Source: Neopestalotiopsis rosae
Lineage: Eukaryota; Ascomycota; Sordariomycetes; Amphisphaeriales; Sporocadaceae
Assembly: GCA_023078685.1 (NCBI GenBank)
Contig: JALGAS010000011.1
Location: 558,001-622,000, forward strand
Direction: 5' to 3'
DNA length: 64,000 bases
Position numbers and translations under genes: made by a program. The notes beneath the pieces are model-generated. The model searched no databases, was not told where the DNA came from, and saw only the letters and a program-made list of their open reading frames with translations. Numbering within the stretch: the first letter of the stretch is position 1; the number at the start of each line of letters is the position of its first letter. Positions 21,435-37,330 of this stretch are shown here, one piece after another.

Positions 21435-22877
21435 ATGGCATCGACCACGAACCTCGAACTCAAGCCAACCCTGGCCCGCCTGCCTCCTCCACCGCCAGCA
21501 GACCTGCGATCACAAGTCCAAGAGCTCCTGCGCGACCCCAGCTCCAAGGTCCCCATCCTGGTCGCCCTCGACGACGATCCGACAGGCACACAGACCTGCC
21601 ACGATATCAACGTCCTCACCGTCTGGGACACTCCGACCCTCGTGTCCGAATTTCGCGCCACCAAGAGCGGCGGCGGCTTCTTCATCCTCACAAACTCTCG
21701 AGCGCTGCACCCGGGTCCAGCCCGAGCACTGATCACCGAGATATGCGCCAACCTCAAGGCGGCATCAGCCGAGACGGGCACGCCTTTCGAGATTGTCCTT
21801 CGTGGTGACAGCACCTTGCGCGGCCATTTTCCCCTTGAGGCCGAGGCCGCTGAGGACGTACTCGGTGTGGCCGATGCCTGGCTTCTCTGCCCCTTCTTCT
21901 TGCAAGGCGGGCGGTACACCATTGATGACGTGCATTATGTGGCCGAGGGCGATGTGCTAGTACCGGCGGCCGAGACGCCGTTTGCCAAAGATGCCACCTT
22001 TGGATACAAGAGTTCGAATTTACGGGACTACGTGGTTGAGAAGAGCAAGGGAGTTATTCCCCAAGAAAAAGTCACAAGTCTCAGTCTCGAGACAATCAGG
22101 ACAGGCGGGCCAGACAAGGTGCTAGAGCAGCTCAAGAGTGTAGCCAAGGGAACGGTCATTGTCGTCAATGCAGCGACCGAGGCCGATGTTGATGTGGTCA
22201 TTCTTGCGCTCCTCAAGGCCGCCACCGATGGCAACCGGTTCCTGTTCCGAACCGGAGCTGCCTTTGTATCTGCGCGCCTGGGTATTTCGCCAATCTCTCC
22301 CATCTCGGCCAAACAGCTCAACCTTTCCGGGGCCGTTGGTGGTCTGGTCATTGCCGGGTCGTATGTTCCAAAGACCACAGCACAACTAGACGTTTTGAGG
22401 ACAAAAGGCGGAGATAAGCTAAAGAGTGTAGTGATTGATGTGCGCACGCTGCTGAAGTCAGAAGACAGCGCCAGAGACGAGATGGCCAAAGCTGTAAAAA
22501 CTGCCGAGGAGGAGATTCAGCGTGGCCAGGATGTGCTGGTAATGACGAGTCGTGAACTAATTACTGGTGACGACGAAGCGAAGAGTCTGGATATAGGCTC
22601 CACCGTAGCCAAGGCATTGGTGTCGTTCCTCGTCGATCTCAAGACGAAGCCACGCTATGTCATTGCAAAGGGAGGCATCACATCATCGGACATGGCCACC
22701 AAAGGCTTACGGATGAAGAAGGCGGCCATTGTAGGTCAGGCGGCTCCCGGTGTTCCTCTCTGGCGCTGCGACGAACCAACAGCCAAATGGCCTGGTCTGC
22801 CCTATGTAGTATTTCCGGGTAATGTTGGCTCGAATGATACCTTGTATGAGGTTGTAGAGGGCTGGCGAGTGCAGTAA
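21435..22877 (+). CDS. Four-carbon acid sugar kinase family protein (DUF1537)
   Basis: Single-exon 480-aa protein from the ATG at 21435. The family phosphorylates four-carbon sugar acids or their oxidised forms (threonate, erythronate, 3-oxo-tetronate) with ATP. Both halves are present. The N-terminal substrate domain begins with ALDDDPTGTQT and has the LTNSRAL and RGDSTLRGHFPLE motifs. The C-terminal nucleotide domain includes VMTSRELI, AKGGITSSD, PGVPLWRC and a final FPGNVG motif. Length matches bacterial members (about 420-480). This fold is well studied in bacteria, where it lies in sugar-acid catabolic operons with dehydrogenases, aldolases and transporters. Here an oxidoreductase, an organic-acid-type MFS carrier and a regulator follow within 11 kb. 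The exact substrate cannot be read from sequence. No targeting signal is seen; a cytosolic location is expected. Confidence 0.9.
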   Translation: MASTTNLELKPTLARLPPPPPADLRSQVQELLRDPSSKVPILVALDDDPTGTQTCHDINVLTVWDTPTLVSEFRATKSGGGFFILTNSRALHPGPARALITEICANLKAASAETGTPFEIVLRGDSTLRGHFPLEAEAAEDVLGVADAWLLCPFFLQGGRYTIDDVHYVAEGDVLVPAAETPFAKDATFGYKSSNLRDYVVEKSKGVIPQEKVTSLSLETIRTGGPDKVLEQLKSVAKGTVIVVNAATEADVDVVILALLKAATDGNRFLFRTGAAFVSARLGISPISPISAKQLNLSGAVGGLVIAGSYVPKTTAQLDVLRTKGGDKLKSVVIDVRTLLKSEDSARDEMAKAVKTAEEEIQRGQDVLVMTSRELITGDDEAKSLDIGSTVAKALVSFLVDLKTKPRYVIAKGGITSSDMATKGLRMKKAAIVGQAAPGVPLWRCDEPTAKWPGLPYVVFPGNVGSNDTLYEVVEGWRVQ

Positions 22878-22935
22878 TCGGTTTTAATAAACAATGAATC
22901 TTGTATTATTGCCTTTCGAAGTGTCCAACCATCAA

Positions 22936-25432
22936 TCAATATGAGAACTGGCTCGTCAATAGATTGTATACATCATTTGCCGAGTCACTCCCAAATGCTT
23001 CATAAATGAGGCTGTCATTCATGACAGCCAAGTCATCCAAAAAATTATGCCTTGGTCCTGCGCCACCGGTCGTCGCAAACGCATTCCATGCCACGCTACC
23101 ACCACTGGCAAAGTCACCATTGTGATTATCAATCGCTGGCGCTTGATGACCCGGGCTGGGACCGTATCCCATTGGCCCAAAGCTGATGACAGAATCTGGG
23201 GAGACGCCGATACCCATCTCTTGGGTCTGCCTATTCGATTGTTTCTTTGAAATCTTACCCAGATTTTCCAACATCTTCTCCAAACCGGACGCAATATGGT
23301 ACAGGAGGTGTCTCTCAGAGGTGACGGAACTCTTTAGAAGTACAATCATGCGCTCGAGCAGGTGAGAAACGTAATTGGACTCGACATTCAGGCCCATGAT
23401 GCGGTTCCACTTGGTGGCCACCTTCATGAGAAAGACGGACGCAAAGGCAATCATGGTGTGAACGTACAAGGGGGTGCCGACGAGGGCGCGGCGCATGTCT
23501 TCCTCCTCGAGCACAAAAGTCAGGATGCTGGCCGCGGCCGAGATGGCCATGTTGGCAAACTCTTTGCGCTCGGTCGACAGCCGGCCCTGCGAGAGGCTCA
23601 CGCCGCGGATGGCGAGCGAGTTGAGCTGCAGCTTGGCAAAGTACGAGTAGAGTATGATGCCCTTGGGCGGGAACGAGCCGATGAACCGGTTGTTCTCCTG
23701 CCGCGCGTTCCATCGCATGCGCCACTGGTCAATCTCGAGGTTAAAGTTGCGCAGGTCGGCAAAGTCGCTGCTGGCGGTCTCGCCGCCTCCACCTTCCTCA
23801 CCGCCGCCGCTCCCGTTGTTATTGCCATCGTCATCTCTCAGCATGGCGCCCGCCGTCGAGTGCTGGAGCGGTAGCTTGCGCTCGACGAAGCGGTCGTAGA
23901 TGCGCGTCAGGATCTGCATCAGCGCCACCTGCGAGAGGATGCGCCGGTCCAGGGCGTCGGCAAACGGCGACTGCAGAAAGAGCTCGTGCTCCCGGATCTG
24001 CAGGGACTCGGCAATCATGGGCGGCCTTCCGTAGGCGATGGAAAAGTGGTGATCGCACACGTAGAGCATGTACCACAGGCGCGCACGCAGAAAATGCTCC
24101 TTGTCGCCCTCCAGGGCTCGTGAAAAGGATTGATGGACGTTGAGCTCGGTCGCGATCCGTATAGCGTGGCCCGAGAGTTTCCAGGAGACTAGATAGTAGT
24201 TAGTCATTTCATTCAGACACGAAAGAGTCTTCCATATGAGCAGCAAAAATCAAGAACGTACCTTCGGACAGCCAAAATGCAGCAATACACAAGGCGCGTA
24301 CATCATCAATGTTGTGGTAGCGACTGAACATGGAACTAGAAGTCAAGGCGAGGAATTCCTTGTAACACTTGTCGAACGTCTCTGCACTTGTAGGTATATG
24401 GAGTGCGGTGACGGTCAGAATCGTGGCCGTGAGCAGCTCGGAAGATTTTCGTATATCGGCAAAGCTTGGATGTGTCTGTTCCAGCCCTACCCACAAGTAG
24501 TGATTGAGGCTTGTATGGAAGCTGGTCGTGTACCACTAATTAGTCCTTAATATCGTGCAAGTCTATAACGTCTGATGAACGAACCTCCGATACAGATCTT
24601 CAGCTTCAGGCAAGGAGATGATGCCTCTCGAAATAAAGTCGTTGACTTCCCTGTTACCACCAGCTTGCGAACGAGCAGTCTTGGCCTTGTTGCTGCGAAT
24701 GTTTCTGAGTCGCGTGACTTCATAGAGGCTGCCCATGGGCTCTTCTACATTCACGGAGCCGCCAGGGCCTTGCTCGCCATTGCTCGTTGCCTCGGGGGAG
24801 TTCTCCCTCGTCATGGCCATGCGCATATTATCCTCTGCTCCTGGTGGAAGTGCTGCCATGGCCGGGCTGCTTTCACTATCGCCTCCCGTATGAGCCTGGT
24901 AACCCGGAGTTGGGGCACGGCCTTGATATGGGCTCTCTATTGCCGCGCCTTGACGGACCAATGTTGCTACTAATTCTCTCATTTGTTTTATTTCCTCCCT
25001 CATTGAGTCAATTTTATGCCTGTTGAATCGGTCATCATCCAGACAACTGTGGCAGCACTTACTGAGCAAACTCACTCGTAGCTCTGTGCTGATCGGGACG
25101 AGCCCATATCAGATGCCGTGTCGGTCATGACAACTCTTTTGAAAATGCAGGTGGCTATATTCCTGCGCAGGCAATTCTTACATTTGGTGTCTCCTGGCAA
25201 GACCTCGCATTTCATCTTTTGCTTTTTGCACTCGACACCTGGTTTTACAGTTCAGTCATTCTGGTTCGTCGGTCTTGTCATGGTCGGGTCACTTACACGC
25301 GCGAGGCTTGCGCCCTGGTCCCGTCCTTCGTACGCCTTCATAGCGTGGGGTCTGGCTCGGAGTCTCTGGTACTGACCATTGAGTGTCTCTTGCTGATGCA
25401 TGCGGCGTCTGTGCAGACACTGACTGCTCCAT
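22936..25432 (-). CDS. Zn2Cys6 transcription factor with fungal-specific middle homology domain
   Basis: Proposed CDS is complement(join(22936..24188, 24262..24521, 24585..25019, 25076..25238, 25297..25432)), 748 aa. The zinc cluster is split by the first intron: the first Cys codon spans 25297/25238. Cysteines lie at about residues 46, 49, 56, 65, 68 and 76 in a C-x2-C-x6-C-x8-C-x2-C-x7-C pattern, preceded by the basic GRKPRA. A short coiled coil (about 100-130) may serve dimerisation. The fungal transcription factor domain follows, with HYLWVGLEQTHPSFADIR, a RALCIAAFWLSE helix, rebuilt across 24262/24188, and the YGRPPMI motif. An in-frame stop upstream of 25432 supports this ATG. It sits between the DUF1537 kinase and the DUF1330-like gene and is divergent from the latter, so it is the best candidate for local pathway regulator. 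The target is inference. Confidence 0.88.
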
Positions 25433-26133
25433 GGCACTGACGGTCTCTCGATCATGGATGTGGCTCTACCAAGTTGTGCCCCTACGCTGAACGGGAAATC
25501 GGGAAATGCAGCATTCATATGCATTTCTGAGCCAGAATGCCGCCAGCAGTTGACCGGCTTTTCGGTCTTTATTTTCCGTAAGCTGTTTGCCATGTTTCTC
25601 CACAATCGCACCCCTAGCGACGAGACTATAGGTGATCCTCTGGGGATGCGGGGTGTTGCTCCAATTCACGGACAAGTGTCCGGCTGCTTATTATAATCCA
25701 GGCTTATTCGTTCCCGACAATGTGGTGCACAAATCCTTAGTGGCACCAATGTAGGAGAGAGAAGCAATTCAAGGAGCTGTTTGCTGAAAACAAAATGTTG
25801 CATTGATATTCCATGCAATTTCAGCCAAAGTACTGTTCGTTCATGTACATGACATCGCGTCACTAGAGGTAGTATTTGGCAGTGAACAAATACACAGTGG
25901 CACGCTACATATATGCCTAGGGTGATACCCAGGCAAGTTCCAAAACACCGTCTTGAATCTCTTGGCTGGTGAGTCGTACCAACTGCAAGCCATACGGAGT
26001 AGAGAGAAGTGTATTAAATAAATTCCTTCAGACAATCTCGTCGGATCGTCCTGCAAGATCGAGCTACAATAGCATGCGCGGATTCTTGCAAGTTCCACTT
26101 CGTGATAATCTACTGAGAGACTGGCAAACTATT

Positions 26134-26180
<47 letters not shown>

Positions 26181-26705
26181 CATCAAATTAACTGCATCTC
26201 TCATCGGAGATAAAGAATCATACCCAGAACCGAAACGACACCACTGTCATAAGGTCTATCTCCAACAAGACCGACTGTTCTCTAAGAAGTGAGAAGAAAA
26301 TGCTTGACTTTCGAACCCAACCCCTGTTAGATTCACGTCATTTCCAAATTCAACAGCACGAAATCGTACGCATCTATCATTTGACGGCACCTTTGGTCAT
26401 GTACAGACGAATTGATAGAGTGCGATAAAAACTACAAGGTTTCATGTGGTTATGTGGGCATCATATCATTTCGCTGATGGTTATGCCGAAGCAAGTATGA
26501 GTCACGCCGCAGGAGTTTAAGGGGTTTGAAGGGTTAAATCCGCCATGTTCACTTGGGCTTTCCAATTAAGGCAATACTGCTTGTTTTGGGCTTGTAGCTT
26601 TTAGAGTATTAAGAAGATGGTTTCCGTCTCTGGCCAAAGTTGTCCTGGTCCATAAGACGATTTCCAGCGCATTTTGATTCCCTCATTTGCAATAACACGT
26701 TCAAC
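25433..26705. other. Divergent intergenic region with long C homopolymer
   Basis: Upstream region shared by the Zn2Cys6 gene (minus) and the DUF1330-like gene (plus). It contains a 43-base C run at 26135-26177. Short frames here carry no recognisable domain. Confidence 0.5.
26135..26177 (+). repeat. Poly-C homopolymer, 43 bases
   Basis: An uninterrupted run of 43 cytosines between TTT and TCC in the divergent promoter region, about 530 bases before the DUF1330-like ATG and 700 bases before the regulator's ATG. The G-rich complement could form quadruplex or triplex structures. Exact length is likely unstable and prone to sequencing error. Confidence 0.9.
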
Positions 26706-27575
26706 ATGGCTCCTGTCACTGCCCATCTGCTCGCACTGTCGCATTCTACGAGCCCGAAGTCTTTCGAGGACGCCCTCAAGACCTTTCATTCGCAAGTCGG
26801 CGGCTCAAGCCTACTTTGGGCTGGCTATTGCCATCACTGGATCCATGAACCGCAACTTTCCCGTCCAGCTCTTACAGGAATTGGCCCCATTCTGAAGCGG
26901 TGGGATTTCGTGGTGATTACAGATCATGCCATCTCCGACACCCAGAGCCTCCCTACCAATCTTCTGAACCTCGTCTCAGATAGTTGGTCGATAGTCTTTG
27001 ATGCCGCGGACGCCGTGATCAAAGGCGCCGGGGACTCGTTGAGAGATATCATCACGAAGTCTCCTCCGACGCTACCAGTAGGGTGGTCTCCCCAAGATCT
27101 CAGTGGTCTTCGCAAGTCAATCCCTCCATCGGATCTCGTCACATCTCTGGGTACACGATCGCCCGTCTTTGGCAAGGACAAGTCTGCGAGCTTGATGGAT
27201 TTGAAGACCTTTGTCGAGTTATATGTGGTCCGGGAACCCGGCCCTGTCTTCATGTTCAACTTGTTATCGTTTTTCCCCAATCAAAAAGCACAGTATATGA
27301 AGTATGTTTCGGCATTTATTGAAGATATTGGACTAAAGTATGGAGCCCAGCCCGTCATTTACGGCTTTGACGCTTCGGAATGGACCTCGAAGCGCGAGGA
27401 TGTAGCAGACCCGGGCGGATGGGAGAATGTTGCCGTGGTTGGATATCCAAGCCTCTTGCATTTCGCCAAGATGCTTGACGATACCCGCTACGCAGAGCTG
27501 GATCGAGCTTACAAGGGAGGTGTCGTCCGTGATAACCCTCTTATCTGCTGTACCACGGTTGATTTTAGTGCCTAG
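26706..27575 (+). CDS. DUF1330-like dimeric alpha/beta-barrel protein
   Basis: Single-exon protein, 289 aa from the ATG at 26706. The first 170 residues form a repeat-like half with GIGPILKRWDFVVITDHA. The last 110 residues contain VFMFNLLSFFP, a helix with YMKYVSAFIEDIGLKYGAQPV, WENVAVVGYPS and a C-terminal DNPLICCTTVDF strand, the pattern of DUF1330/ferredoxin-like dimeric barrels (usual single domain about 95 aa). Such small barrels include monooxygenase-like, lyase-like and isomerase-like proteins; no catalytic residue can be assigned. Fungal two-domain versions are known to me only as hypothetical proteins. It lies between the regulator and the MFS carrier, so it may help in the same pathway. 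Confidence 0.7.
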   Translation: MAPVTAHLLALSHSTSPKSFEDALKTFHSQVGGSSLLWAGYCHHWIHEPQLSRPALTGIGPILKRWDFVVITDHAISDTQSLPTNLLNLVSDSWSIVFDAADAVIKGAGDSLRDIITKSPPTLPVGWSPQDLSGLRKSIPPSDLVTSLGTRSPVFGKDKSASLMDLKTFVELYVVREPGPVFMFNLLSFFPNQKAQYMKYVSAFIEDIGLKYGAQPVIYGFDASEWTSKREDVADPGGWENVAVVGYPSLLHFAKMLDDTRYAELDRAYKGGVVRDNPLICCTTVDFSA

Positions 27576-27735
27576 GTTGGCAGCGACGAATTGGTTGGTT
27601 GAAGCACTGTTGGAATTCGAAAGTCATAGTTCTGGCAGTCTCATTCTTTCGGGTAGACTATGTTCATATTTTCGAGTAGTGAGAATTGAAGCACAATCTT
27701 GTTTTTTAATATGCCATTGTAGTGATTTCGTATGA

Positions 27736-29644
27736 CTATGTTTGGTACTTGGCGAGTTTGCCGCTTCCAGCACCACCCAATGGCCGGCCGGCAGTGGGAT
27801 GTTCATGATGATGAGCAGCCGCCTTAGACTTGCCCTCCACATTTCCCTCCTCCAATGCATAACCATCGACCTCTAACTGTTCCATCGTCTTGTTGTCTCT
27901 CTTGAGGTAGAAGGACAGAACCAGCGTTGATACTAATGTGACGACGCAAAGTGCCAAATTGACACCCCAAGCTAGGTTGGTCGCATGGTCAGCGCACATC
28001 CAACTTGGTGGGAGGACTCTTTTATTTGCTTACCTGTGGTATATCTCGGACCGGCACTGTCAGGATACAGGTAAGGGGTCCAGACAAGAGCAAGATTACC
28101 AAGAGAATTGTTCATGGCGAGCCCAATCGCACGTTTCTTCTGCGGACGAGCGGCAATGTTTGCCATCCACGCATTGGAGATTTGGAAGCAGCCATATGTT
28201 CCAGGAAGCATGAGAAAGAGCGCAAAGTAGCGAGCGCCGATATTTGTCGTTGCGACCGTGATGATGATGCCGACGATGGCAACAATAGTAGGATATACAA
28301 TGTGGGGAGAACGCTTGCTAGTCTTGTCGGAACACCAGGTGTTGAACAAACAAAAGCAGGCAGTAAAGAGGTATGGCTAAGCACGATACTATCAGTATTA
28401 ATCCCTAGAAAACAGGGCCAACTCATTTACTTACAGGTGCAGTCAACAAGAGCGTGTGTATGGTGCTGAAACCGAAGTTCTTGACGAGCGTGGGCAAGAA
28501 ATTGGTGAGCGAAGCAACAGCCTGCAGACACATTTGATTGGCAATGCAAAGCCAGATTCTAAAGTCTTTGGCTGCCATTTTGAATGCGTGCCATGTTCTG
28601 ATTTCCGACTCCTCCTCTCCGGCGTCCTCGATCAGTCGAACAACTCCGAGGGCCTTCTCTTCTTGGGTCAGCCACTTGGTCGTCGCGGGCCAATCTGGAA
28701 TGACAAAGGCGGTAGCGCATGCAAATACAACAGTGGCAGCTCCCTCGATGATGAACAGCCAGCTTCAAACTCGTCAGTAACTCTTGAACTGAGAATATTC
28801 ATCCATGTTTGGTTCAATATAACATACCGCCAGCTCGCTATGGCATTGCCTTGGAATGCAGCAGCGATACCCGCGGCAAAGAGTCCTCCAAAGGCTCCGC
28901 TCAGCATGGCAGCACAAAAGAAGATGCCCAGTCGAAGTCCAAGTTCTGCTCTTGTATACCAGCCCGAAAATAGGAAGGCGACGCCAGCAAAGAAAGGGGC
29001 TTCGGTGATTCCAAGGAAGAAACGACAAGCCGCCATGCCTGCAAAGTTGTGCACTGCGCCAGAGCAACCGCTAACAATGCCTGGCTCTCGTGTCAGTCTC
29101 TCACGCAGTTGTTCATACCGCTGCGATCGATCTACTCACCCCACAGAACCATGACAACGGATAGATATATACTTGGCCTGGTCAACCCCAAGATCATGTT
29201 GCTGGGCACTGATTCAGGCGTCAGTTTGCCTGTTTTTCATAGCTCCACAAATGAGCGTGTCTACCTTGCATCAGGATGTAGCCGATGAATGTCAAGCTGA
29301 GTACGATATTATACTCGACACCGACGAGGCCGATGTCAGCCACAAGGCCTTGAACTTTGGCTTGAGGGAGCGCATTTCGATCGATGTAATTCATGATGTA
29401 CATGAGGATCTATTTCGGGTAGAAAGAATTGATCAGAATCATTAAATATTGACACTTCGCATGTTTTCCCAGCCAGGAGCGTGTAGAGGGATAGGGTACG
29501 TACGAGTATAGGCAGCAGTCTCATGTCAATTTTTCTGATCAATGCCTTCTCTCTGGCAACTCTTTCCTCAGGCGACCAAAATGCGACAATGTCGGCGTAG
29601 TTTGGAGCAGAGTCATCTGCAGGTCCTTGACCGGTGTTCGCCAT
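27736..29644 (-). CDS. MFS transporter, anion:cation symporter family (Dal5/allantoate permease-like)
   Basis: Proposed CDS is complement(join(27736..27971, 28034..28376, 28435..28762, 28828..29080, 29140..29208, 29265..29409, 29504..29644)), 504 aa, seven exons. Evidence: an N-terminal cytoplasmic segment with EERVAREKALIRKIDMRLLPIL; the first helix with YIMNYIDRNALPQAK; QVPSNMILG at a rebuilt junction; then FFLGITEAPFFAGVAFLFSGWY, the SWRWLFIIEG motif, KDFRIWLCI and a late NIGARYFALFLM helix. Twelve helices are expected. This family imports organic anions (allantoate, nicotinate, pantothenate, sugar acids) with protons at the plasma membrane. It is divergent from the SAF-domain oxidoreductase over 0.9 kb and close to the DUF1537 kinase. 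A sugar-acid substrate would fit, but this is inferred from context. The C-terminus is His- and Gly-rich. Confidence 0.88.
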
Positions 29645-30126
29645 GCTGGGCAATACTCAGGTACGAAATGACGTTGAATCAGGAGTAGTATTTCTTCAAA
29701 TATAGACAAGCCAAGCTATTTTTTCTCGTAGTACTTTCTTGTATAGACTGAATAAACAGTCCAGCTGCGGCCGAGCTCTCTCCATAATGGAAAGGGGAAT
29801 TCCTGCCAGTCTTATGCTCAGCAAGAAAGGGGGCCTGGCAAGCAAACAATCTCATTCCAGCATCATACCACCAGACCGTAGGCCATATCTCAGCCCTGTA
29901 CTTGGCGTGCCCCGGCTTTTACACTAATTCCCCAGGCAAAACAGATTTCCCCAGACTTTGTCTCCATTCTCCATGGCGTCCATCCGGGGTGCATGACGCC
30001 GTTGACCCTCGTGTTTGCCCTGTGGAGAGGCTGGATTAGCGCCCTGATCCGCGTCAAGTCAATGATTACCGTTTCCAGCAATTCCCGATTTCCCGGAGGC
30101 GTTTGTGCGATAGAATAGCTCCAAAT

Positions 30127-30140
30127 CGGGACATTCCCCG
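30127..30140. promoter_or_regulatory. CGG-N8-CCG inverted triplet
   Basis: CGGGACATTCCCCG, an inverted CGG pair spaced by 8 bases, in the divergent promoter. The same spacing occurs upstream of the DUF1537 kinase (21175-21188). It is a candidate Zn2Cys6 dimer site, but can arise by chance. Confidence 0.3.
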
Positions 30141-30360
30141 CAAAATCTGGACCATATCATTAACAATGAGTCTGAATCGCGAAAGGTATCGTGCCGCAGT
30201 GGGCTGTCACTCATGCGTTTTCGTCGGATGATACTGGCCGAAGGAGGTTGTGTCACCGGTAAATAGTGCGATTTGCCGATGCAAGCTATACACTTTGCGG
30301 CGGGGGAAACGACAACACACTCGTGCGGTCGGGCTGAGATGACTGACAAGTTTGAGAGCG

Positions 30361-30367
30361 TATAAAG
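30361..30367 (+). promoter_or_regulatory. TATA box for the SAF-domain oxidoreductase
   Basis: TATAAAG lies 155-161 bases before the ATG at 30522, followed by a CA/CT-rich leader. The distance suits a fungal core promoter. Confidence 0.45.
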
Positions 30368-30521
30368 CAGTTTGAAGATGAGATATTCGTCTCTAAGTGC
30401 TCAAGAGCATCAAAACCCAATACATACGCCCGTCCACACACATTTTTGAATCAGAATAACCTTGCTCTCACTCACCTCTCGATCTTTACGCACCACCAGC
30501 CAAACCTATAAATCATTCACC

Positions 30522-32129
30522 ATGACTAGCCTGTCGACCAAGCTAGCCGACCTGGAAGCGGCAGGGAAGCCCATCCAGGTCGGCATCATCGGAGCAGGCA
30601 AGTTTGGGTCCATGTTCATTGCCCAGTCCCATCGGACGGTGGGCATGAGACTGGCGGGCATTGCGGATCTGTCGTCGGATCGCGCCTTTGCCTCTCTGAA
30701 GCGGACCAACTTCCCGACCGACAAGTATGACACTACTGTCAATGCGTCGATATCAGAAGGCATCAAGGCCGGCAAGACAATAGTCACGACCGACTCGGCT
30801 GCCCTTATTGCTACTCCCGAGATTGATGTCATCCTCGAAGTCACTGGAAACCCGGCAGCGGGTATTAGACATGCGCTCTTGGTGAGTTTCACCTGTCCTT
30901 AATGATCAGGGCCCCGATCACGGATAGCTCACACTTCTTCTATTCAGTGCTGTGAGCACAAGAAGCACATTGTCATGATCAACGTCGAGGCAGACGTACT
31001 AGCAGGTCCTCTTCTAGCAAGGAAAGCGAAAGAAGCAGGCATCATTTACAGCATGGCATATGGCGACCAGCCAGCCCTCATTGCGGAAATGGTAGACTGG
31101 GCGCGGACGGCAGGATTGTGAGTCACCACTGGACTATCATTTCTTTACCATTGGGAACATAGCAACTAACACGGTACTCCCCATAAGCGACGTTGTTTGT
31201 GCTGGAAAGGGAACCAAGCATCTACCGCAATACCATTACTCCAACCCGGATACAGTATGGGACTATTATGGTTTCACAAAGGAACAGTTGGAGTCGGGTG
31301 ATTTTGTAAGTTCCAGTCAAGGCGGATCTATATCTGCACCGCGAAATTTGTGGCTGACTAGAATCCTTTTCAAAAGAATCCTCAAATGTTCAACTCATTC
31401 CTCGACGGAACCAAGTCGGCTCTAGAAATGGCGGCCGTGGCCAACGGCTGCGACTTGAGCCCGCCGTCCGAGGGCCTCCAGTTCCCGCCCTGCAGCAAGG
31501 GGGACCTGCCCGAGGTGCTCAAGCCCGAGGCGGACGGCGGCCAGCTCAAGAAGAAGGGCACGGTCGAGGTGGTGTCGTGCATGGAAAAGGACGGGCGCTG
31601 GACGTTTGACCACCTGCGGTGGGGCGTCTACGTCGTCATCGAGGCGGCCTCGCAGTACCAGATGGACTGCTTCCAGCAGTACGGCCTCAAGACAGACAGT
31701 ACCGGCAGGTACGCGGCCCAGTACAAGCCCTACCACCTCATTGGCCTCGAGCTCGGCGTCTCCATCGCCACCATCATGTGCCGCGGCGAGCCCACGGGCC
31801 AGACCAAGACCTGGGCCGGCGACGTTGTGGCCACGGCCAAGCGCGATCTCAAGGCGGGCGAAACGCTTGACGGCGAGGGCGGCTTCACTGTCTATGGAAA
31901 ACTCATGACGGCCGAGGATTCCATGGCCATCTCGGGCCTGCCGATTGGTCTCGCACACGGGTTCGTGTTGAAAAAGGACATCAAGAAGGATCAGGGACTG
32001 AGCTGGGACGACGTGGAGTACAGCGAAAAGTCGCAGGCTGTTGCCGTGCGGAAGGAGATGGAGGCTATCTTCAAGAAAGAGTTTGCGCTGAAGTCTGGCA
32101 AGTCTAATGGCGTCAATGGTATACATTGA
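30522..32129 (+). CDS. NAD(P)-dependent oxidoreductase with homoserine-dehydrogenase-like Rossmann domain and SAF domain
   Basis: Proposed CDS is join(30522..30881, 30948..31117, 31188..31305, 31377..32129), 466 aa. The N-terminal Rossmann domain has VGIIGAGKFGSMF; the second exon continues with CCEHKKHIVMINVEADVLAGP and YGDQPAL, as in homoserine-dehydrogenase-like proteins. The C-terminal SAF module (about 375-440) is marked by ATAKRDLKAGETLDGEGGF, the GLPIGLAHG segment and DIKKDQGLSWDDVEY. Two-domain proteins of this type occur in bacterial and fungal sugar-acid gene neighbourhoods; the precise reaction is not known to me. The last intron has two candidate acceptors 15 bases apart, both in frame; the downstream one is preferred because a CTGAC branch site lies at a suitable distance. 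Context with the DUF1537 kinase and the divergent carrier suggests it oxidises or rearranges the substrate of the same route. Confidence 0.85.
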
Positions 32130-35268: not shown

Positions 35269-37330
35269 ATGAAAAGCACAACGGAGGTTTTGGCTCCGAC
35301 CGAGGATCTCTTGTCCTTCGCTTTCGCAAAACAGAGAACTTTTGATGACTCAAAGCCGTTGTACGTCAGTGCCGACGATCCGCGGCAGTCGCTCAGTTAC
35401 AAGCAGACCTTGGAATACGTTCGACAGTTGATTTCCGGACTTAAAGCTTTTGGACTTGCAGATGGCGATGCCGTACTCGTACATCTTTTCAACAACGTCA
35501 GTCTTAGCCTCGGTATGGAAGAGACCTGCGCAGCTAACAGCGCGCTCAGTATGCCTATGCACCCATCCTCCTCGCCATTATTGGGGCCGGAGGCATCATC
35601 TGTGCCACCAATCCGACGCTCAAGAGTGAGCTGGTGAATATCTTTGACATTGCACGGCCCCGCTTCGTCATTACCACGTCGGATTTGCTGCTCAACTTGC
35701 AGAAATGGGTGCCAGACATCAGCCTTGACAATGTCCTGATCTTCGATGATCCCATGTCTCCAAGATCCCATGATGGCCGTCCAGACTTGAATTGCGGCCG
35801 AGGAAGTATTGATGCCTCTCTCCTGAGCCATGGTGAGAGGGATTGGAAAAGAATACATACGGAAGATGAAGCAAGAAAGACACCAGCTTCCTACTTCTTG
35901 ACATCTGGCACAACGGGTTGTCCCAAACTGGCCACCCTGTCACACTATTCCATGGTTTCTCATTTCAAGCAGATCCACCAGGACGTACCGTACGAAGCAA
36001 TACGACTGTGTTGTCTGCCATTGTTCCACATCTTTGGCAGTGCCTGGGCCATGGCACTGACGATTCGCCATGGTCAACCAGTATACATCATGCCTCGCTT
36101 TGTCATGGACAAATACTTGGAGTATGTTGAGAAGTTCCAGATCACAGAAAGCTGCCTCGCACCACCAATTGTGGAAAAGCTGAACAATCTCGATCCATCT
36201 CCTAAAATTCAACTGGCATCTCTCCGTTTTGTTGCTGTAGGAGGCGCACCCATTACGGCCGCCACCATGTGCACATTCAGGTCAATGCTGCATGACGCAG
36301 CGACATTGAGTGGCTGCTATGGTGCAACGGAAATGGGAACCATCAGTATGTTTCGATACGGCGAGCAAGTTGACTATGGCTCTGTCGGGAGACCACTACC
36401 GGGAGCCAAGATAGAGTTGAGACCGATCGAGGCCAATCATCTTGGTACGGCAAAGGATCATGCAGATCCAGAGACCTGGACCGAGATTGTTGTCTCAGTG
36501 CCCTCTCACATGGAGAGATATCATGGCGAACCCGAGAACAGCAGAGTCAATGTTCAGTGGTATCGCACGGGTGACTTGGGTCGGATGGAGAATGGCAAAT
36601 TGTACATTGTTGGCAAGGTCAAGGATATTATGAAGGTAAATGGGTGAGTTGATTATCTGATCAAGCGCAAGAGAATTTGACGATCGGCGACTAACATTCT
36701 GCTGGACCAAGTTTCCAAGTCTCGCCGACCGAGATCGAGGCCGTTTTGCTGCGGCATCCGGACATTGTCGACTGTGCGGTTTCTAAAACTGTGCGCAACG
36801 AGGCCGAAATGCCACGTGCCTACGTTGTGAGACGTAGCCAGACTCTTTCCGAGAATGATGTCGTCGACTTTTCCAGGCGGCAGCTAATCAGCTATAAGAC
36901 ACTGACAGGCGGCGTGGCCTTTGTCCACCAAATACCGAGGCTCGCCAGTGGCAAGATTCAGAGATACAAACTTGCCGACCTCTCATTGAATACGAAATGT
37001 GATGTGCAGGAGATACAAGAAGACGGGAGAGGGGAGGAGGGGGAAGAAGAAGAGGAGGAGGAGGAGGAGGAGGAGGAGGAGGAGGAGGAGGAGGAGGAGG
37101 AGGAGGACGCTGAGCCAGGTTGTGCACGTCCAACACGCATTCTTCGCAAGCTCATTCGCCGCGCAGGCTTGAGCAATGGAGGCTGGGTCGTTCGAATGCT
37201 GGCATCAGAGCATTGGATATCGAGGGAGTATTTGAACCCATGGTCAGCCTCGAGCATTGGGTTGTTGAGTTGTGCAGTCGGGGTCGGTATCTGGTATATG
37301 AGAGCATGTGGTGAGGAAGATCCTAGGTGA
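35269..37330 (+). CDS. AMP-dependent acyl-CoA synthetase/ligase (4-coumarate:CoA ligase-like) with poly-Glu tract and C-terminal membrane anchor
   Basis: Proposed CDS is join(35269..35496, 35550..36643, 36712..37330), 646 aa. It should activate a carboxylic acid to an acyl-adenylate and then a thioester. Visible motifs: HLFNN joined to YAYAPILLAIIGAGGIICATNPT at the first junction; the P-loop TSGTTGCPK (about residue 193); the GCYGATEMG motif; YRTGDLG; VKDIMKVNG joined to FQVSPTEIE; and the catalytic-lysine motif RLASGKIQR. After this normal end the chain continues with 21 consecutive Glu (37043-37105), a basic helix, and a final hydrophobic helix (SIGLLSCAVGVGIWYM) that should anchor it in a membrane, an unusual tail for this family. 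No peroxisomal tripeptide is seen. It is divergent from the tmpA-like gene. The acid substrate is unknown. Confidence 0.87.
37043..37105 (+). repeat. GAG/GAA trinucleotide repeat coding 21 glutamates
   Basis: Three GAA codons are followed by 18 GAG codons without interruption, in frame inside the AMP-ligase gene between its catalytic part and the membrane anchor. A near-perfect triplet repeat, likely polymorphic in length. Confidence 0.92.

Follow-up and report, generated by a model that had tools for sequence, protein, structure and literature searches.

A candidate two-locus route for four-carbon sugar acid breakdown in the fungus Neopestalotiopsis rosae

A three-step route for the breakdown of L-threonate comprises the dehydrogenase LtnD, the kinase 2-OtnK and an F_bP-type aldolase, 2-OtnC (Guo et al. 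2024, as reported in passages of PMC12540250). The same passages describe an Arabidopsis protein, LTD (AT1G18270), in which LtnD, OtnK and F_bP-aldolase modules are fused into a single polypeptide. A four-step route (LtnD, OtnI, OtnK and OtnC), represented by the ygbJKLM genes of E. coli, likewise includes a step catalysed by a kinase of the DUF1537 family. Here, we describe a block of five genes in the ascomycete Neopestalotiopsis rosae that encodes a DUF1537 kinase and, 7.6 kb away, an oxidoreductase of the DRL/DXR-II family. The block occupies positions 21435..32129 of a 64,000-nucleotide stretch (the window; positions 558,001 to 622,000 of contig JALGAS010000011.1, assembly GCA_023078685.1), from a 53.8-Mb genome assembled in 17 contigs. 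Together with genes on a second contig (designated C12), it suggests that the fungus may degrade four-carbon sugar acids in three steps, with the genes divided between two loci, a reading to which we assign a probability of about 0.5.

The oxidoreductase has its own described relatives. According to passages of PMC3847144, DLO1 and DLO2 are sister families of DXR-II that were uncharacterised in 2013, and none of four DLO members tested complemented a DXR mutant. In the same account, threonine at position 229 is absolutely conserved in DXR-II and replaced by proline, serine or alanine in DLO2, glycine at position 121 is assigned to DXR-II and alanine and serine to DLO, and the genera with DLO2 include Methylobacterium.

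Set against these systems, N. rosae possesses an LtnD-like dehydrogenase, a DUF1537 kinase and a class-II F_bP aldolase, candidates for the three families of the three-step route, and its kinase is nearest to an Arthrobacter kinase encoded in such a locus, but the candidate fungal genes are split over two contigs and have an additional DRL gene and a carrier gene beside the kinase. Like Arabidopsis, the fungus is a eukaryote with LtnD-, OtnK- and F_bP-aldolase-like modules; LTD, however, is fused and carries two full LtnD units, whereas the fungal genes are separate and the LtnD-like protein contains a single NAD_binding_2 stretch, with two of NAD_binding_11. The DUF1537 step is common to the four-step route also, although the fungal kinase is not of the YgbK type. 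The fungal oxidoreductase belongs over its full length to the same family as DXR-II, DLO1 and DLO2, with NAD binding and the DRL_cat and SAF domains, but differs from DXR-II at several residues and in having a DUF1537 kinase as neighbour; the survey in PMC3847144 was of eubacterial proteomes. Finally, an actinobacterial operon described below (DRL-GntR/FCD-MFS-DUF1537) unites the same set of oxidoreductase, regulator, carrier and kinase as the fungal block, but with a bacterial regulator, another MFS type and a kinase of a different group (K2 rather than K1, as defined below). Neither a fungal DUF1537 pathway nor a function for DLO2 was found among the matches listed in the open-licence PMC literature (titles and abstract openings), nor was the actinobacterial operon noticed there, and passages of PMC10971088 and PMC9966272 contain no fungal DUF1537 pathway.

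The DUF1537 kinase and its candidate partners

The kinase gene (21435..22877, plus strand) is intronless and encodes a protein of 480 amino acids. Its assignment to the DUF1537 (four-carbon acid sugar) kinases, made in an original prediction from the sequence of the window, is borne out by Pfam matches to SBD_N (3.3e-58; 197.6 bits, cut-off 25) and NBD_C (3.1e-41; 142.1 bits, cut-off 28.3), and it gives the single match to PF07005 in a profile search of the 53.8-Mb genome. The closest named relatives of the kinase and of the oxidoreductase are from Pestalotiopsis and Seiridium, with Neopestalotiopsis also among the relatives of the block. The placing of the host in the Hypocreales by that prediction was mistaken, as Neopestalotiopsis and Seiridium belong to the Sporocadaceae (Amphisphaeriales).

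We refer to the bacterial kinases nearest to the fungal kinase as K1 and to their sister group, that of the DRL-linked kinases, as K2. In a quick tree, the fungal kinases form one clade (Shimodaira–Hasegawa-like approximate likelihood ratio test, SH-aLRT, 97) with the kinase of an Arthrobacter LtnD-kinase-aldolase locus (L197), and this clade adjoins the kinases of Microbacteriaceae DRL operons and lies far from the kin of E. coli YgbK. Row labels in the tree were taken from hidden Markov model (HMM) scores, of which the topology is independent; four kinase rows were dropped by length and long-branch warnings were returned. The block kinase shares 42% identity with the K1 kinase of locus L237, 40% with that of L197 and 34% with the K2 kinase that is linked to DRL in L097. 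By tree and HMM scores, the kinase thus falls in the 2-OtnK-type branch rather than with the YgbK type, a placement made without the published Arthrobacter ZBG10 kinase sequence, and is predicted to act on 2-oxo-L-threonate. The genes found near K1 kinases support C4-acid chemistry for the fungal enzyme: an LtnD-like dehydrogenase gene is present in 10 of 12 regions fetched and also in L197, a class-II F_bP aldolase gene in L197 and L248, and genes for Dak and RpiB in L237 and L239. To this extent the C4-acid route originally predicted finds support, but not its confinement to five genes forming one complete cluster.

The original prediction had also seen no aldolase partner within the window. 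A candidate partner exists on C12, where an LtnD-like gene, a class-II aldolase gene and genes encoding a Dak kinase and RpiB lie side by side (1,391,163-1,397,856). The LtnD-like frame (1394591-1395973) is followed by the Dak kinase and then RpiB; the class-II aldolase gene (1397023-1397850; Pfam), which accounts for one of seven PF01116 match rows in the genome, is divergent from it. The best NCBIfam model for the LtnD-like protein is L-threonate dehydrogenase (297.3 bits, under the cut-off of 350). The Dak protein scores above the threshold for glycerone kinase (603 versus 575), and RpiB above that of an actinobacterial ribose-5-phosphate isomerase model (186 versus 168), its second model being D-erythrulose-4-phosphate isomerase, for which it is under the cut-off. 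The C12 set and the block kinase together make up the bacterial L237/L239 set plus an aldolase. Some 14-19 kb from this first set, at 1,412,124-1,416,500 (in L105), are a short-chain dehydrogenase gene, another class-II aldolase gene and another RpiB gene (the two RpiB proteins share 72% identity over 131 residues), which suggests a duplicated C4-sugar module on C12.

Other known routes were looked for in the genome. A route via D-threonate kinase and PdxA2 was rejected, PF04166 having no match in the N. rosae genome but matching 5 of 14 control genomes. Searching with the E. coli YgbM (OtnI) sequence gave no match, a result weakened by introns and by the lack of a positive control, and no YgbL-like (OtnC) protein was found in the 8 loci examined of 14 PF00596 match rows.

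In the route that we propose, the block carrier would import a C4 acid, which the LtnD-like enzyme encoded on C12 would oxidise to an oxo-tetronate. The block kinase would phosphorylate this product, from which the C12 class-II aldolase-family enzyme would form dihydroxyacetone phosphate. The dehydrogenase-kinase-aldolase order is taken from the published three-step route; the import step, and the role of the DRL protein as a second oxidising entry feeding another C4 acid to the same kinase, are our own suggestions. The Dak kinase and RpiB would perhaps serve C4 ketoses, and the Zn2Cys6 regulator may provide local control of the block. The most likely substrates are L-threonate and/or D-erythronate, which could derive from ascorbate in plant tissue.

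The oxidoreductase and its linkage to DUF1537 kinases

The oxidoreductase gene (30522..32129, plus strand) has four exons (30522-30881, 30948-31117, 31188-31305 and 31377-32129) and encodes 466 amino acids, the spliced model differing at one residue from a 466-residue database protein (P0001). The protein matches DRL_cat (2.1e-57; 194.1 bits, cut-off 27), SAF (1.1e-8) and NAD_binding_3 (7.4e-6), the NAD domain being of the homoserine-dehydrogenase type, and aligns over its full length with the Brucella DXR-II structures PDB 3upy (8.3e-57) and 3upl (9.4e-57). It is the single match to PF21135 in the profile search of the genome. The SAF and NAD domains of the Rossmann/SAF oxidoreductase first proposed are therefore present, but on the strength of the DRL_cat and SAF domains, the PDB matches and the active-site residues that generic label has been dropped in favour of DRL/DLO2-like.

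Several active-site residues differ from those of DXR-II. All nine fungal rows, that of the window protein included, have serine in place of Thr229, tryptophan in place of Phe178 and lysine in place of Arg320, and in the window protein glutamine takes the place of His250. The substrate-site lysines Lys191 and Lys193 are retained, as is Gly121, a DXR-II trait that is a misfit to DLO2. We describe the protein as a DRL/DXR-II-family member that is DLO2-like in its sequence. The nine fungal rows are a single clade inside alpha- and beta-proteobacterial rows in a 126-row quick tree that lacked a labelled DLO2 reference; the joint fungal-proteobacterial clade (34 rows, SH-aLRT 95) includes Acetobacteraceae, Methylobacterium, Herbaspirillum and Caballeronia. 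Since the fungal rows are nested in this way, the tree fits a transfer of the DRL gene from bacteria to fungi, that being the probable direction.

Kinase and oxidoreductase are each the sole copy found in the genome, and the chance of two single-copy genes lying within ~10 kb of each other would be a few in 10,000, although this arithmetic is post hoc, the block having already been seen. Co-location in other fungi was examined in lists of 120 rows for each protein. The kinase and DRL proteins of Xylariales sp. PMI_506 are on contigs of identical size (1,126,920 bases), as are those of Xylariaceae sp. FL1272 (366,234 bases).

Linkage between the two families recurs in bacteria. We surveyed 199 genomes of the Microbacteriaceae, the family of the Herbiconiux genome (G001) that contains L097, using the fungal DRL alignment and PF07005 as queries; the counts exclude DRL rows with E >1e-16, additional pieces of a gene already counted and three kinase rows that were fragments, which leaves 131 kinase rows. 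In the DRL group most like the fungal proteins, a DUF1537 gene lies no more than 12 kb from 16 of 22 members, and no more than 2.5 kb from 15 of these. The operons have the order DRL-GntR/FCD-MFS-kinase, which in Leucobacter continues with a class-II aldolase and an ABM protein; locus L095 has the order DRL-GntR-MFS-kinase-class-II aldolase-ABM. Among the DRL genes of a further group, marked by DXR-II-like residues, none has a DUF1537 gene close by (0/9). In a distant DRL group, all 11 members are 186-426 bases from a DUF1537 gene on the opposite strand; DRL_cat was found by Pfam in both members tested, and in six regions fetched the DRL gene adjoins YgbK- and YgbL-like genes, which encode canonical 3-oxo-tetronate enzymes. 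These distant proteins (L181-L186) have glutamate and aspartate at the positions of DXR-II Lys193 and Thr229 in all six cases, which suggests a different substrate. A DUF1537 gene is present in 21 of the 26 genomes with either of the two fungal-like DRL groups versus 70 of 173 others (Fisher p 2e-4, kinship ignored).

Beyond this family, we examined the 80 nearest bacterial DRL loci, calling genes by third-position G+C content and family searches, as longest-frame calling gave antisense frames in GC-rich loci. Seven of the 80 have a DUF1537 gene in their flanks, one of which (in L085) is a 117-residue frame piece; the fungal-kinase HMM alone, which misses YgbK types, gave 5/80, and the count includes an added YgbK query but would miss kinases unlike both. 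In Tropicimonas (L093) the genes for DRL, ABM, OtnK, OtnC and OtnI are consecutive, and L072 has the order DRL-OtnI-HIBADH. A DUF1537 gene is present somewhere in 19 of 20 DRL genomes, hand-picked from the 80, versus 3 of 14 unrelated controls. Taken together, the gene neighbourhoods support a bond between the DRL family and DUF1537 kinases that recurs across three bacterial settings.

Other neighbours were also seen at these loci. A PhyH-like (phytanoyl-CoA dioxygenase family) frame adjoins or overlaps the DRL gene in the proteobacterial loci L041, L043, L045, L052, L054, L058, L061, L068, L069, L075, L078, L081, L082, L090, L092 and L094, the label being Pfam-confirmed for L058 only, and two PAC2-family genes lie just upstream of a deltaproteobacterial DRL gene (L049, 8186-9899).

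Carrier, regulator and the 289-residue protein

The MFS carrier gene (27736..29644, minus strand; seven exons) gives a clean spliced frame of 504 amino acids that matches MFS_1 (2.2e-32), as first labelled; presumably it belongs to the anion:cation symporters. As originally described, it is divergent from the oxidoreductase gene, and in the spliced gene models the two are separated by a common intergenic region of 0.88 kb (29645..30521) that would hold both promoters. The carrier is 28% identical over 384 residues (157 bits) to the MFS protein adjoining DRL in L022 and 33% identical over 229 residues (119 bits) to part of another N. rosae MFS protein.

The Zn2Cys6 transcription factor gene (22936..25432, minus strand) has several exons, with a start codon set by eye. 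Matches to Zn_clus (1.3e-5, on the spliced N-terminus) and Fungal_trans (1.1e-6) confirm its label, and its position suggests that it may act locally. The pattern CGG-N10-CCG was tried as a common Zn2Cys6 site and rejected: it occurs in all four promoter regions and in 0 of 200 resamplings, with a site between the carrier and oxidoreductase genes, yet is not significant over all patterns, since at least one tested pattern is common to the four regions in 199 of 3000 resamplings; it also has 22 matches in the 64-kb window.

Between the regulator and carrier genes lies a gene for a 289-residue protein (26706..27575, plus strand). The DUF1330-like label originally given to it does not hold, as no Pfam family was matched at E up to 5 and no NCBIfam family; the sole source for the label is the UniRef name of its Pestalotiopsis fici relative. 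That sequence and one from Neopestalotiopsis clavispora (79% and 96% identical, respectively) were the two relatives found among 1,185 word-sharing candidates scored, and since the protein has these relatives we regard the gene as real. Its structure model (mean predicted local distance difference test score, pLDDT, 43.5) is too poor for a fold search. The protein probably lies outside the conserved system. Small ABM-family-like proteins recur in DRL operons (L085, L088, L093 and L095), and the 289-residue protein might be their functional counterpart, although no similarity was shown.

Two further features of the window may be mentioned. A homopolymer of 43 C residues between the regulator gene and that for the 289-residue protein (26135-26177) is possibly assembly-sensitive, and a frame at 36695-37330, judged by eye to be acyl-CoA-synthetase-like, contains a long glutamate run.

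Competing explanations and significance

Several results weigh against a two-locus route in which kinase and oxidoreductase act together. The kinase passes no NCBIfam equivalog, the best being OiaK (34.7 bits versus a cut-off of 700). The C12 aldolase shares no more than 33% identity with its Arthrobacter L197 counterpart and other N. rosae aldolases are equally close; because similarity cannot separate them, and the family is silent on substrate, its assignment rests on position. A second DRL group in the Microbacteriaceae is near a DUF1537 gene in just 1 of 13 cases, and none was found in 73 of the 80 nearest bacterial DRL loci (two queries, some flanks short). In 16 of the 80, a PhyH-like dioxygenase gene lies by the DRL gene, so not every DRL protein need act on tetronates. 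Contig sizes of the kinase and DRL proteins differ for Seiridium cupressi and Lasiodiplodia theobromae, two of the four species in both lists, possibly from the pooling of several assemblies; conserved co-location in relatives, proposed originally as a check, may hold in two fungi of four. The carrier is not specially close to the DRL-linked bacterial MFS protein, and no promoter motif common to the block is significant once all patterns tried are counted. Finally, in the Microbacteriaceae none of 36 K1 kinases is near a DRL gene, as against 16 of 29 K2 kinases (fragments G099 and G206:C19 left out, pieces of four genes joined). Nothing, therefore, indicates that fungi inherited the pair in the form of a bacterial operon: the two genes, of different bacterial affinities, were either joined in fungi or are chance neighbours.

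The last of these possibilities is a serious, if less probable, competitor. L-threonate could be broken down by the kinase together with the LtnD-like enzyme and aldolase of C12, with DRL and the divergent carrier forming a separate module of proteobacterial origin for some other acid. The absence of K1 kinases from the vicinity of DRL genes would be expected under such an arrangement, and Arthrobacter has DRL-GntR-MFS at one place (L077) and kinase-LtnD-aldolase at another (L197). Moreover, in the bacterial clade closest to the fungal DRL, 13 of 25 loci have an L022-type MFS gene within 5 kb of DRL and no kinase detected in the vicinity, versus 0 of 55 other loci with such an MFS gene, although the MFS query came from that same clade and some flanks were short. 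The recurrence of this carrier type beside DRL counts on the side of a real pairing in the fungus as well. Against it stand the 7.6 kb separating two genes each found once in the genome, the two other fungi that seem to hold both on one contig and the coupling of the DRL family to DUF1537 kinases in three bacterial settings. It is rather unlikely that the kinase has a different kind of substrate, such as 4-hydroxy-L-threonine or an acid that has five or six carbons or is branched (of the apionate type, for example). Its sole NCBIfam match, far under the cut-off, is a 3-oxo-isoapionate kinase, and phosphorylation of 4-hydroxy-L-threonine has been reported for one DUF1537 kinase (passages of PMC10971088), but the neighbours of K1 kinases are L-threonate-dehydrogenase-like, with Dak and RpiB in two loci, and LtnD, kinase and F_bP aldolase constitute the published L-threonate set (passages of PMC12540250).

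The original picture of a single complete cluster, in which all five genes of the block would import, oxidise and phosphorylate one C4 acid, now seems improbable: all five genes are present, and actinobacterial operons likewise unite DRL, regulator, MFS and DUF1537 kinase, but the aldolase and LtnD-like genes are on C12, the supposed DUF1330-like protein has only two relatives and K1 kinases are not DRL-linked. Least probable by far is that fungi acquired a true DXR-II enzyme of isoprenoid (methylerythritol phosphate) synthesis. Full-length likeness to the Brucella structure (8.3e-57) and the retention of Lys191, Lys193 and Gly121 speak for such an enzyme, but the changes at Thr229, His250, Phe178 and Arg320, on which we have set this role aside, speak against it, as does the failure of the four DLO members to complement the DXR mutant (passages of PMC3847144).

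More tentatively than the two-locus route itself, we propose that DLO2-type DRL proteins may supply DUF1537 kinases by acting as C4-aldonate dehydrogenases, or perhaps as oxidoisomerases. DRL-kinase pairs would then have formed in several separate bacterial lineages, and fungi would have assembled such a pair anew, bringing a proteobacterial DRL next to a 2-OtnK-type kinase of their own. The one kinase would thereby have two entries, with LtnD admitting L-threonate and DRL another C4 acid. If true, this would provide a testable role for DLO2, uncharacterised in 2013 (passages of PMC3847144) and with no later assignment among the matches listed. The division of the pathway between two loci would also mean that a view restricted to the cluster hides the aldolase. 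The three-step L-threonate route would extend from bacteria and plants to ascomycetes, suggesting how plant-associated fungi could use the breakdown products of ascorbate.

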